Positions 9,914 through 25,283 of a stretch of DNA of 64,000 bases are shown one piece after another. Below the pieces are notes generated by a model. It searched no databases and had not been told where the DNA came from. It worked only from the letters and a program-made list of their open reading frames with translations. Origin of the DNA: an uncultured Caldilineaceae bacterium (GTDB lineage: Bacteria; Chloroflexota; Anaerolineae; Caldilineales; Caldilineaceae); the NCBI GenBank assembly GCA_951813625.1, contig CATOTS010000009.1:1-64000 (forward strand), written 5' to 3'. Made by a program: the position numbers and the translations under genes. Position 1 is the first letter of the stretch. The number at the start of each line of letters is the position of its first letter.

Positions 9914-10037
9914 CTGAACCTCGCGTTTTGTGCAACACGTTGCCGGTTGTCGGTGCCTTGAACGGAGTGCCGCCCGCAATCGATCATAATGAGCCTGCAG
10001 AGGTCCGTCAAGACAGGGGGAGCTGTATTTCGACCAC

Positions 10038-11372
10038 TCACTCAGTACTTGCCTTCGTATGTTTTTCCAAAAAGGCCAACGTCTTCCAGAACATCTCTTC
10101 GCCAGATTCGGTCATGTCCTCGCCTATCTGCAGATAGTGACTCTCATCCTCGTAGTACAAGACCTCAAGGGGGACTCCTGCCGCGCGCAGCGCCGCTGCC
10201 ATTTCGTAGGCTTGACTAATCGGGATGATGCGGTCGACCTCGGTGTGAATGATCATCGTCGGCGGCAGGTGAGAGGCGGTGTAGACTGGTGAAAAGTAGA
10301 GGAATGTCAGGGGAAAAAGGTTGGCCGGGCCGAGCGCGGGAATAACATACTCAAAGCGTTCGGGCAAGGACAGGCGGCGGGCGTAGAAGTCAGCGCTGCC
10401 GCTAAAGGCGTTGCTGATGCCACCCAAGGTAAGCCAGGCGGCGAACTGGTCACGTTCGTCTCGCAGCAAACGGTTTACGATGGCGCTTGTGAAGCTGCCG
10501 CCCATGGCGACGGCGGGCACATCTGCCAGGTCCACGCCGAGATGGCCGCCGCGGGCCAATGCCAGAGCCAGGCGCGCGTCCTCGGCATGGGCGGTGACGT
10601 CGATCTTCCAGTGGACGGAAGGAGAAAGGGCGACAACGGTGTAACCGGCATCGGCCAGGGCAACGATCACGGGCACCCAGTCGTCAACGTCGCCGGGGAA
10701 TAGAACAAAGAGCAGGGGCAGCTTCTCGCCGACATCAGGGAAGGGACGATAGAGCCGCAAGGACCCATTCACTGCGCCCTCGCGAGCGAAGGAATAGGGG
10801 CGCGCCCAGGCAGTTGCACCGGCGGGAAAGGTGGCTGTCAGCGTGATCGGTTCGCCAGACTCAAGCGAGGCCGCGTCCGGCAGAGGAGCGGGTAAAGGGC
10901 GGGGCTGATGCGGACGCAGCGCTAGCGCCGGGGCTTGCGCAATCTCTCCAGGGCGAACGGTGATCGGATAGGGAAAGCCGAACGCGCCAGTGAGCGCGGT
11001 CTCCTCGAATTGATGGGCCACGGCCGCGGGCACATACTGCCCGGGCGGGATATTGTCAATGCGGTATTGGCCGCCGGCATCGGTACGCGCGGAGAAGGGC
11101 GTTCCGGTGCGCGTGGCTACGATGACGGAGGCGCCCGCCACCGGCTTGCCTGCAGACAGCACTTGCCCCGCAAGGCTGCCGCGCGCGACCGACGGCGCAA
11201 ACTCAACTGGACCGCCCAGCCTCTGCTCGATTAGGTAGCCGAACACGTTCGCTTCGGACGATGGCGTACAGGCTGCGAACAGCAGTGCGGTCAGCCAGAA
11301 CAGCCGGGAAACGGACCATGCAAGGCGGCTGGCGAAGCGATTCCCATTGATCACAACATACTCGCTATACAA
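10038..11372 (-). CDS. Lipoprotein with carboxypeptidase-regulatory-like domain and alpha/beta hydrolase domain
   Basis: The N-terminus has a hydrophobic stretch ending in the lipobox LFAAC, so the protein is probably a surface lipoprotein. Residues of about 65-120 form a carboxypeptidase-D-regulatory-like beta sandwich (GSLAGQVLSAGKPVAGA, then DAGGQYRIDNIPPGQY). The C-terminal half is an alpha/beta hydrolase with nucleophile elbow MGGSFTS, an acid near HTEVDRIIP and a histidine in DESHYL, resembling dienelactone hydrolases and prolyl oligopeptidases. The substrate is unknown. The first possible start is TTG at 11372; GTG at 11354 also leaves the signal peptide intact. Confidence 0.75.
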   Translation of the reverse strand: MYSEYVVINGNRFASRLAWSVSRLFWLTALLFAACTPSSEANVFGYLIEQRLGGPVEFAPSVARGSLAGQVLSAGKPVAGASVIVATRTGTPFSARTDAGGQYRIDNIPPGQYVPAAVAHQFEETALTGAFGFPYPITVRPGEIAQAPALALRPHQPRPLPAPLPDAASLESGEPITLTATFPAGATAWARPYSFAREGAVNGSLRLYRPFPDVGEKLPLLFVLFPGDVDDWVPVIVALADAGYTVVALSPSVHWKIDVTAHAEDARLALALARGGHLGVDLADVPAVAMGGSFTSAIVNRLLRDERDQFAAWLTLGGISNAFSGSADFYARRLSLPERFEYVIPALGPANLFPLTFLYFSPVYTASHLPPTMIIHTEVDRIIPISQAYEMAAALRAAGVPLEVLYYEDESHYLQIGEDMTESGEEMFWKTLAFLEKHTKASTE

Positions 11373-20641: not shown

Positions 20642-21100
20642 TCAGTCGGGGTCTTGGGGCTGGAGATGCTCGATTCCTATTTCGATCCCATCCCATCGCT
20701 CCCGCAGGTATTCGGCGACGAGACGGCGGTGGCAATGGTGGGGCTTGTGCTCGCTGCACAATAGGCAAGCGTCTTCGAAGAGTTCTGGATTGAAAACTTC
20801 CTCGATCTTGCGGGAGATCATAAGGGCGCGAAATGAGTGCTCATAGGCATCCCAAGTCCCCTTCTTCTTCTTGAATGCGTCGAGGATCTCCTGAGTGGGT
20901 GCGAGCAGAGGCAGATGGAGGTAGTCGATATTGCCGATTTCGCGCAAGAAGTAGCGGAGATCGTTCTGCTTGGCAAAACCGGCAAGTTGAGACCGGTTGT
21001 TGAGGCGGGTATCGATCAGCGTACGAACGCCCGACGCTTTGAGTTGCGAAAAGAAAGTCTCGGCGCTCTTGCGGGTGAATCCTATGGTAAATAGTTTCAT
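20642..21100 (-). CDS. DUF488-family protein, divergent paralogue A
   Basis: A 152-aa protein of the DUF488 superfamily. The N-terminus MKLFTIGFTRKSAETFF matches the usual YTIGHS-type start, with Asp-Thr-Arg at 30-32 where relatives have D-x-R. The conserved C-terminal cysteine motif is LLCSEHKPHHCHRRLV (Cys115, Cys123-His124-Arg125). Biochemical function is unknown; the Cys/His/Arg set suggests a small catalytic or metal site. Start: ATG at 21100, with GGAG 7 nt upstream inside the end of the preceding gene, one base after its TGA. It is the last gene of a three-gene cassette with a dual-OB protein. Confidence 0.85.
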   Translation of the reverse strand: MKLFTIGFTRKSAETFFSQLKASGVRTLIDTRLNNRSQLAGFAKQNDLRYFLREIGNIDYLHLPLLAPTQEILDAFKKKKGTWDAYEHSFRALMISRKIEEVFNPELFEDACLLCSEHKPHHCHRRLVAEYLRERWDGIEIGIEHLQPQDPD

Positions 21101-21101
21101 A

Positions 21102-21737
21102 TCAGACTCCGTCCGCCGCGTCATCGCGCCCATCCCCGTTAGTTCTTGCTGACTGCACCCGGTAGGCAATACGCCGCTCCTGATGCTCATATGCCTCCTC
21201 AATTTGCTCCTCCTTTTCCTTGAATAGGTCTGCTTGCTCCATGCGAGCGAGCCTCAATAGCCTTCTCTCACTCTCTTCATGAGGTTCGGTCTGACCATCG
21301 TCCAGGATGTGCAAAATTGAAAGGTCTTTGTCGTTGCGCAAGTGACGGCAGATTAGGACAGCGCGGTGGCAGGTAAGGGGATCTTTTTCCGCGCACATAA
21401 GGGCGATTCGGTGTGTCTCTATGCCTTCCCTGACCCGAACCAGCCCATGTTGGAAAGCGTCTGATTCCGCAAGTCGACCATACTTTACTCTGCCATCGGC
21501 GTCGTAGCAGGACGGATCGGAAGACCGTCCTCCAAGTTCCTCGCCCAAAAATACATAGGCGATCTTGTGACGTTTGAGTTCCTCGCGGAGCGCTTCACGG
21601 TTGAAGTGTGGATGTATCCGGCTGTACGGCGTAGAACGCACATCGCAGACCGCTGAGATCCGATGTCTCTTGAGAAGATCGATAAATCGCGGAAGCGTAT
21701 GTACTGAATGCCCAACCGTGTATAGTTTCCGGCTCAT
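21102..21737 (-). CDS. DUF488-family protein, paralogue B
   Basis: A 211-aa DUF488 protein closer to the family consensus than its neighbour: YTVGHSVHTLPRFIDLL at the N-terminus, DVRSTPYSRIHPHFN at 32-46, and LMCAEKDPLTCHRAVL with Cys115 and Cys123-His124-Arg125. The C-terminal 60 residues form a charged helical tail (ESERRLLRLARMEQ, then KEKEEQIEEAYEH) absent from the shorter paralogue. GAGGA lies 7 nt before the ATG. The gene starts 22 nt after the dual-OB gene. Base composition is visibly lower in GC than the flanking catabolic genes, consistent with horizontal transfer. Confidence 0.87.
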   Translation of the reverse strand: MSRKLYTVGHSVHTLPRFIDLLKRHRISAVCDVRSTPYSRIHPHFNREALREELKRHKIAYVFLGEELGGRSSDPSCYDADGRVKYGRLAESDAFQHGLVRVREGIETHRIALMCAEKDPLTCHRAVLICRHLRNDKDLSILHILDDGQTEPHEESERRLLRLARMEQADLFKEKEEQIEEAYEHQERRIAYRVQSARTNGDGRDDAADGV

Positions 21738-21759
21738 GCTGGATCCTCGGGACTGCCGC

Positions 21760-22425
21760 TTACAAGGGAATTATCGAAGCCACGATCTTGTAACAGTAGC
21801 CATTGAATGGTTCACCGATGGAAATACAGGCCACTGCACGTTTCTTGTAGGCGTGAAGACCTTCAGGACGCGAAAAACTATGTCCCTCAACGGCCGGATC
21901 AGTAACGCCTAGCTTGTACTTCTGACCCTCCAGGCAAAACTCCGCTCTGACCCTCAGCTTTGCCGCCTCCAGCCTGATTTCAATGCGAAGCTGTTGCGGC
22001 TCTACCAGGACCAAGGAGCTCGGCAACGTCTCAACCTGCTCTTCGGGAATCCGGTCATTGAGACCGCGCGTGCTGCTATATCCGTTTATCCAAAGTGGAT
22101 TGGGCGATTTACAGTAACGGAGAAGCTGCTGCCTTGGGAACTGTCCCACCCTAGCCCAGGTTCCATTGTGATCGATCAGATGATTTTCGGTCTGGCAGCC
22201 CAGAGGACGGGGTTCAAGCATCGGGACTTCGAGAATGTCGAGCAGCGCAGGGTCGGAGTTATCCTCCAATTTCCGCTCGGAGAGGCCGAGTTCTCCCAAA
22301 GGGAGACTGCTGACCGGGCGTACCCAGTTACTCAGCTGCGTTCCCTCGACTTCAAGGCCGGCGACGCAACGCTCCGAATATTTGCGGGAGTTCGCCAGAC
22401 AGACGATGCGTTTCAGGTAGCTCAT
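21760..22425 (-). CDS. Dual-OB-fold domain protein, first gene of DUF488 cassette
   Basis: A 221-aa protein I recognise as the dual OB-containing family by its N-terminus (LKRIVCLANSRKYSERCVAG), the NWVRPVS and DPALLDILEVP segments, the QTENHLID motif and the C-terminal GEPFNGYCYKIVASII. OB folds bind nucleic acids or nucleotides, but no activity is established for this family. The ATG at 22425 has AGGAG about 9 nt upstream. It is on the same strand as, and 22 nt upstream of, two DUF488 genes. The low GC content suggests the cassette was acquired as a unit. Confidence 0.75.
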   Translation of the reverse strand: MSYLKRIVCLANSRKYSERCVAGLEVEGTQLSNWVRPVSSLPLGELGLSERKLEDNSDPALLDILEVPMLEPRPLGCQTENHLIDHNGTWARVGQFPRQQLLRYCKSPNPLWINGYSSTRGLNDRIPEEQVETLPSSLVLVEPQQLRIEIRLEAAKLRVRAEFCLEGQKYKLGVTDPAVEGHSFSRPEGLHAYKKRAVACISIGEPFNGYCYKIVASIIPL

Positions 22426-24446: not shown

Positions 24447-25283
24447 CTAAAGCGAGCAAACGATGCGGATATTGGTTGCAGTCAGTTCATTCTGGTCCCG
24501 TTCCGAGGGAATGAGTCGGAATTCGAAGATGTGATCGCGGCTGGGGAGGTGGTCCTTGACCGAATCATCCTGCATCATCGAGAAATGGAAGAAGGCGCTT
24601 TCGTAGGGTGAATCGGGGCTTTTGCGCTTGTCGACCAGCCAAAGATGGGGCGAAACTTTGGTCAGAAAGCGCATGTAACCGAAACCCTTCTCCTCGTTGT
24701 AGTAGTAGCACCAGCCGCGCACAATGGAATCTGGCAGTCCCCAATCGGCGACGTCGTTGTGGGCGGGAAGAAGGTTGGGAATGAGATAGCCGGACATGAA
24801 CATGTCCACTTCCTGGCGCAAGTTGCTCGACACATTGTCGAAAGCGACGACTTCGACGCGGCAGCCTTTGTTCTGGAGCGCGCGCACCACCTGGACGAAG
24901 TCGCCGTCGCCGGTTGCGATCAACACTCTGTCGAGATTTTCGGACTGGAGCAGGGCATCTACCGCCAGGTCCAGATCGGAGTTGGCTTTGGCGTAGCGGT
25001 TGCCGGCCTCGTCATCGTACCAGCGCACGCGCTTGATGATCACCTTATATCCGAGGTCGCGCAAGGCGGAATGGAATCGCAGCGCACCGACACGGTAGTC
25101 CATATCCCATTGGGCGCGTTCAACGTCGTGGGTTACATAGGCATTCAGCCGCACCGGTTCACCCATATCCCGGCAGGCAAATTCGCGCAAGACATCATAC
25201 TGCATACGGGAGCCGCCGTTGCGATAGATATTGGCGGCGTCGACATATACGCCTACTTTTACCAATGACTGGTACCAATCCAT
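24447..25283 (-). CDS. NYN-domain (LabA-like PIN) ribonuclease with C-terminal cold-shock-like domain
   Basis: Residues 1-175 form an NYN/PIN nuclease. The acidic residues sit at YVDAANIY (Asp15), NSDLDLAVDAL (Asp103, Asp105) and TGDGDF (Asp126, Asp128), the usual metal-binding set. Residues about 188-278 resemble a cold-shock domain, with KGFGYMRF and SAFFHFS as RNP1- and RNP2-like strands, so the protein probably cuts or binds single-stranded RNA. Start chosen: ATG at 25283 with AAGGA 6 nt upstream. It is divergent from the TRAP operon and likely monocistronic. Confidence 0.82.
   Translation of the reverse strand: MDWYQSLVKVGVYVDAANIYRNGGSRMQYDVLREFACRDMGEPVRLNAYVTHDVERAQWDMDYRVGALRFHSALRDLGYKVIIKRVRWYDDEAGNRYAKANSDLDLAVDALLQSENLDRVLIATGDGDFVQVVRALQNKGCRVEVVAFDNVSSNLRQEVDMFMSGYLIPNLLPAHNDVADWGLPDSIVRGWCYYYNEEKGFGYMRFLTKVSPHLWLVDKRKSPDSPYESAFFHFSMMQDDSVKDHLPSRDHIFEFRLIPSERDQNELTATNIRIVCSL

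Follow-up and report, generated by a model that had tools for sequence, protein, structure and literature searches.

The operon at positions 20642-22425 of the minus strand of the analysed stretch of DNA (hereafter the window, 64 kb from an uncultured Caldilineaceae bacterium) is, judging by profile matches, an intact member of PDC-M45, a catalogued, unvalidated candidate anti-phage system, and its kind is not new. What our comparison adds is that this trio of genes, encoding a dual-OB protein (DuOB) and two DUF488 proteins (B and C), is old in Caldilineaceae, that DuOB and B have been lost jointly in this family, and that C is separable from both and kept by selection, the last of which is a new and testable point.

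The operon and its catalogued counterpart

Three closely packed genes on the minus strand, spaced by 22 nt and 1 nt, make up the operon just as the initial annotation had described it, and their content of one dual-OB and two divergent DUF488 proteins likewise holds up in Pfam, where DuOB matches PF22557 with 214 bits (cut-off 27) while B and C match PF04343 (DUF488) with 95.5 and 88.1 bits, respectively (cut-off 22.2). C additionally matches the DUF488-N3a model with 45.8 bits. The features, in the order of the operon, are the following:

21760-22425, minus strand: DuOB (PDC-M45A), 221 aa, first gene of the operon; matches PF22557 and PDC-M45A
DuOB residues from about 1 to 105 and from 105 to 221: two OB folds according to the AlphaFold2 model, Foldseek and VIA
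21102-21737, minus strand: DUF488-B (PDC-M45B), 211 aa; matches PF04343 and PDC-M45B
20642-21100, minus strand: DUF488-C (PDC-M45C), 152 aa, ATG at 21100; matches PF04343, DUF488-N3a and PDC-M45C

A longer open reading frame listed for DUF488-C starts at an upstream TTG, and we took the ATG at 21100 as the start of the gene; a plausible ribosome-binding sequence precedes each of the three starts. No promoter-like sites were found in the operon region, and Rfam gave no match within the 64-kb window. The source genome has no DUF488 genes besides B and C, and C is the best conserved of the three components as well as the sole one kept in some relatives.

In PADLOC-DB 2.0.0, all three components of the candidate PDC-M45 are matched at full length, adjacent and in order: DuOB matches PDC-M45A (PDLC04653) with 252 bits over residues 1-219, B matches PDC-M45B (PDLC04657) with 271 bits over residues 2-200, and C matches PDC-M45C (PDLC04658) with 230 bits over residues 1-140, the corresponding PDC-M45 component being the top-scoring PADLOC model for each of the three proteins. 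To call the trio a cassette of unknown function, as had been done, was therefore too strong, since it is already listed as PDC-M45 in PADLOC and every one of its domains has a Pfam family; DUF488 itself is a common family for which, to our knowledge, no function has been described. Most PADLOC candidates of the PDC type await experimental validation (PMC12988326). Our literature search found no paper naming PDC-M45 and no experiments on any of its members.

The GC content of the operon, which had been noted as lower than that of the flanking genes, indeed ranks lowest among the window's open reading frames (0.540 for C, 0.539 for B and 0.547 for DuOB, compared to a mean of 0.617 with a standard deviation of 0.032 over the 50 others). 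The neighbours in the window are metabolic genes (transporters, a gamma-glutamyltransferase and an aldo-keto reductase) and form no defence island. The operon is preceded, two genes upstream and at 24447-25283, by the gene of an NYN-domain protein (a predicted nuclease) that has the same place in all seven Caldilineaceae relatives introduced below, with 90-97% identity.

Trio and solitary C at one Caldilineaceae site

Among the best 80 loci of a genome scan with C (see below), the nearest relatives come from Caldilineaceae genomes, and all seven share with the window the position of C, flanked by the genes of the gamma-glutamyltransferase and the aldo-keto reductase. The complete trio is found at this site in two of these relatives (L040 and L041), and C alone in the other five (L042-L046, at about 9998-10456), whose genomes contain no DuOB and no second DUF488. 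The low GC is no sign of recent acquisition, since the C genes at the corresponding site of all seven relatives have a similar GC (0.536-0.569), and we therefore rejected a recent horizontal gain as its cause. Such a gain is also contradicted by phylogeny, as the three trio-bearing genomes (those of the window, L040 and L041) are united in a single clade in the tree of DuOB (support 0.99) and again in that of B (0.955).

The C proteins of all eight genomes form a single clade as well, in which L041 is nested among the C-only genomes (support 0.65-0.72). The simplest reading of these trees is that the Caldilineaceae trio is old and that DuOB and B were lost jointly, probably on two or more occasions provided that L041 is placed correctly despite its weak support. 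Purifying selection on C persists where it is alone, with dN/dS values of 0.05-0.15 in the C-only lineages (those of the aldo-keto reductase were left unused, some pairs being distorted by the alignment). C must therefore have a function without its partners. As to the heterodimer or two successive steps that the initial annotation had suggested for B and C, the joint loss of DuOB and B with C left in place is an argument that C can do without B.

Solitary C genes are also found outside of this family: in four unrelated genomes without any DuOB, in three Pseudomonadota of a sample of 398 genomes, and on large enterobacterial plasmids (IncHI2 and IncX5), where C has uvrA on one side and frmR on the other, within a formaldehyde-detoxification cluster that also comprises genes of a formaldehyde dehydrogenase and an S-formylglutathione hydrolase (fghA). 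The C proteins of these plasmids (L156, NZ_KX810825; L157, NZ_CP086392; L158, NZ_CP018017) share about 60% identity with the one in the window, and uvrA is directly upstream of C in two of the three annotations. This cluster is one context and no rule, because a formaldehyde or uvrA context of C was not found in the other genome loci tested. In a single case (L206:9571-13601), a lone C lies beside glmS-like and glmU-like genes; RapZ, whose C domain is related to DUF488, acts in glucosamine-6-phosphate control.

These occurrences bear on the main rival to an immune function, namely that the trio is a cellular module for the repair or clean-up of nucleic-acid or nucleotide damage, in which C would mend damaged ends or nucleotides (e.g., those with aldehyde or other adducts) while DuOB and B would widen its range. 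Such a module would fit the conserved solitary C of many genomes, its position between uvrA and frmR on the plasmids, its vertical inheritance at a fixed site in Caldilineaceae with low dN/dS, and the Chloroflexota neighbourhoods without clear enrichment of defence genes, but it sits poorly with a full trio that is sporadic, often mobile and in places adjoins CRISPR or CBASS genes (see below), and the formaldehyde context belongs to one plasmid lineage. We regard this explanation as a serious contender, albeit an unlikely one. Should C turn out to be a repair enzyme, its substrate could be sought by comparing close relatives that carry or lack DuOB and B at one chromosomal site, a clean contrast provided by nature. 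Rather tentatively, C might be an ancient stand-alone enzyme of nucleic-acid or nucleotide repair that was repeatedly armed as a conflict system by the addition of DuOB along with either B or an mSLOG-DUF4326 protein. The Caldilineaceae site would then show this arming step in reverse, with DuOB and B coming off and C staying, and the stand-alone role (e.g., aldehyde-damage repair beside uvrA) could be compared with the armed role in close relatives.

Recurrence, neighbours and mobile forms of the trio

Bacterial genomes were scanned with an alignment of C because that of DuOB is too variable for scanning the collection. At least 580 relatives of C were found, and the best 80 loci, which stem from many phyla, were examined. 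In these best 80 of at least 580, picked by similarity of C alone, DuOB adjoins C in 65 and B does so in 71, with some of the misses being contig ends, and DuOB is present in 40 of the 42 genomes behind non-cyanobacterial C loci. A sample of 398 Pseudomonadota genomes contains C in nine (including one that had been chosen as centre of the sample) and DuOB in five, all of which are among those nine and have DuOB adjoining C. Over a set of 148 loci, biased in that several were fetched by DuOB, the gene order is DuOB-B-C in 59, B-C-DuOB in 29 (mainly cyanobacteria), DuOB-C without B in 28 and B-C in 13, while 18 have C alone (three of these, L141, L145 and L205, with a divergent or weakly matching DuOB) and one lies at a contig edge.

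The divergences of DuOB, B and C co-vary (Mantel r of 0.41, 0.29 and 0.69, values reached by at most 1 of 2,000 permutations), and DuOB and B form a single open reading frame in Candidatus Thiomargarita nelsonii (L092:8734-10002), a fusion that supports a predicted contact of DuOB with B. The initial annotation had made its idea of a system depend on the co-occurrence of the three families in unrelated genomes and on a GC and codon use unlike those of the neighbours. The GC does differ from theirs, and the families are indeed adjacent, in conserved order, across unrelated phyla; the trio is a real association. That three unrelated small genes merely happen to be neighbours, a view which has nothing in its favour beyond the lack of functional data, is refuted by this recurrent fixed-order adjacency, the fusion and the co-divergence, and we assign it practically no probability.

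Several variations around the trio were observed along the way. Two Chloroflexota genomes of one genus carry a tandem pair of DuOB genes (G117:C5:114519-115998 and G221:C5:39737-41229), and four other Chloroflexota loci (L016, L018, L019 and L021) carry a divergent class of DuOB with 15-19% identity to that of the window, which adjoins two DUF488 genes in three of the four. In L034, L125, L132 and L135, the trio is immediately preceded on its upstream side by genes of an HTH regulator and an ImmA/IrrE-type peptidase. At L200:9706-11615, B is apparently truncated and an IstB-like transposition ATPase is encoded upstream in the expected place of DuOB, in a genome without any DuOB.

A clustering with known defence genes, which had been raised as a possible sign of immune function, is seen in single cases and weakly in a wider set of loci, but not in matched Chloroflexota stretches. 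The trio is surrounded by type III CRISPR genes on the Allochromatium plasmid pAt1 and lies near CBASS genes on pAt1D1108a. Across the wider set, the neighbours of the trio (from simple longest-ORF calling) match 182 PADLOC families compared to 56 in control stretches of the same genomes, counted as families and not as proteins. Families matched by at least two proteins number at least 25 near the trio, including Schlafen-type RmrA, capP and Csx1, and zero in the controls, and we take the wider set as weak support for an association with defence. The matched Chloroflexota comparison gave 53 PADLOC families over 141 neighbours of the trio and 16 over 115 controls, all of them families of one or two members with many families per protein, and no clear PADLOC enrichment around the trio was seen in these stretches.

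The distribution of the full trio is sporadic and extends to plasmids and viral contigs. In the plasmids of Acinetobacter, Citrobacter and others as well as in most of the viral contigs, DuOB and C occur without B and are followed by an mSLOG-DUF4326 protein; neither DuOB nor C was found in the annotated phage collection. DUF4326 has been described as a clade of rhodanese-phosphatases and a proposed processor of terminal ribose phosphates on ADP-ribose or its products (PMC9503650), and also as a bridge between NAD signalling and DNA modification (PMC7824862). The alternation of B and DUF4326 beside the same C and DuOB suggests that the two share related chemistry. Together with the proposals made for SLOG and DUF4326 in these papers, the replacement of B in the mobile variant would agree with a role in nucleotide signalling, where DuOB and the enzymes would make, sense or destroy a signal of the ADP-ribose type or another nucleotide. 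However, neither Pfam nor PADLOC shows a SLOG, TIR or sirtuin domain in the trio of the window, or any other domain known to cleave NAD. OB folds, moreover, bind nucleic acid more often than nucleotide signals, and we consider a signalling role quite improbable.

Predicted folds, proposed function and known relatives

The two OB folds that had been read from the DuOB sequence are supported by an AlphaFold2 model (pLDDT 96.9), for which the top Foldseek matches are HIN-200 domains (E of 2e-4 to 1e-3), followed by other ssDNA-binding OB proteins. The model of DUF488-C (pLDDT 91.4) suggests a phosphatase-like fold, with a best Foldseek E of 8e-3. In comparisons with VIA, where a Z below 8 may reflect merely a common arrangement and the values for both proteins are suggestive rather than proof, the first half of DuOB matches the OB folds of telomere proteins, RPA and CST (Z of about 7), its second half matches the OB fold of BrxL (Z 6.7), and C matches CobF, laforin, SsoPTP, PRL phosphatases and diphthine synthase (Z from 7.7 to 6). 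At the sequence level, a profile of 17 DuOB sequences matched no chain in the PDB at E up to 5, HIN-200 included, and the search for solved homologues gave none for DuOB or B and one chance-level match for C.

Cys115, Cys123, His124 and Arg125, which had been singled out in both DUF488 proteins of the window, have the same numbering in the two and are invariant within each family. The invariant positions are C112, C115, S116, E117, C123, H124, R125 and R126 over 67 sequences of C and C115, E117, C123, H124 and R125 over 53 sequences of B. The model of C places C115 at the end of a strand (111-115), followed by a loop (116-123) and a helix (124-135) with R125 and R126 at its start, a layout that resembles the site of a cysteine phosphatase except for its longer loop.

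We give an even chance to a function in the conflict with mobile DNA, in which DuOB would recruit cysteine enzymes of the phosphatase-like type to nucleotides or to the ends of nucleic acids. The two OB folds of DuOB would bind a nucleic-acid end or a nucleotide signal and present it to B and C, the putative cysteine-dependent enzymes of rhodanese-phosphatase fold, which would then remove or transfer a phosphate-linked or ribose-phosphate group. An mSLOG-DUF4326 protein in the place of B would fit a chemistry of ribose phosphates and base-ribose bonds, and the resulting conflict system against phages or other mobile DNA would be built around a C that also has a function of its own. In its favour we counted the PDC-M45 matches, the conserved trio with its co-divergence and fusion, the mSLOG-DUF4326 variant, the HIN-200 domains as best fold matches of the DuOB model, the phosphatase-like C model and the sporadic, mobile distribution; against it we counted the lack of clear enrichment in Chloroflexota, the metabolic neighbours in the window, the low VIA Z values and the absence from the phage collection. 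A defence role is plausible, if weakly supported, and if the trio does serve immunity, immune systems would gain a pair of phosphatase-like enzymes with a dual-OB protein as their guide.

Compared to PDC-M45 as catalogued, the window copy shows no essential difference, while the five sister Caldilineaceae genomes carry component C alone at the corresponding site. The mobile variant has the same DuOB and the same C-type DUF488 as the window trio but lacks B, whose place is taken by the mSLOG-DUF4326 protein after C. Outside of bacterial operons, the HIN-200 proteins (IFI16, p204 and p202) are animal dual-OB DNA sensors that have two OB folds per chain like the DuOB model, but TM-scores between them are about 0.3-0.4 and the arrangement of the OB folds differs, and we do not claim DuOB as a member of this group. 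The DUF488 family presumably belongs to the RapZ-C/DUF488/DUF4326 clade of the rhodanese-phosphatase superfamily, a clade that Burroughs and Aravind reportedly described in 2023 with a predicted role in nucleic-acid end processing in conflict systems. With this superfamily, C shares a cysteine that closes a core strand ahead of the active-site loop and an arginine-bearing helix, and its model resembles phosphatases and the N-domains of diphthine synthases, whereas the loop from C115 to R125 is longer than that of a classical CX5R phosphatase.
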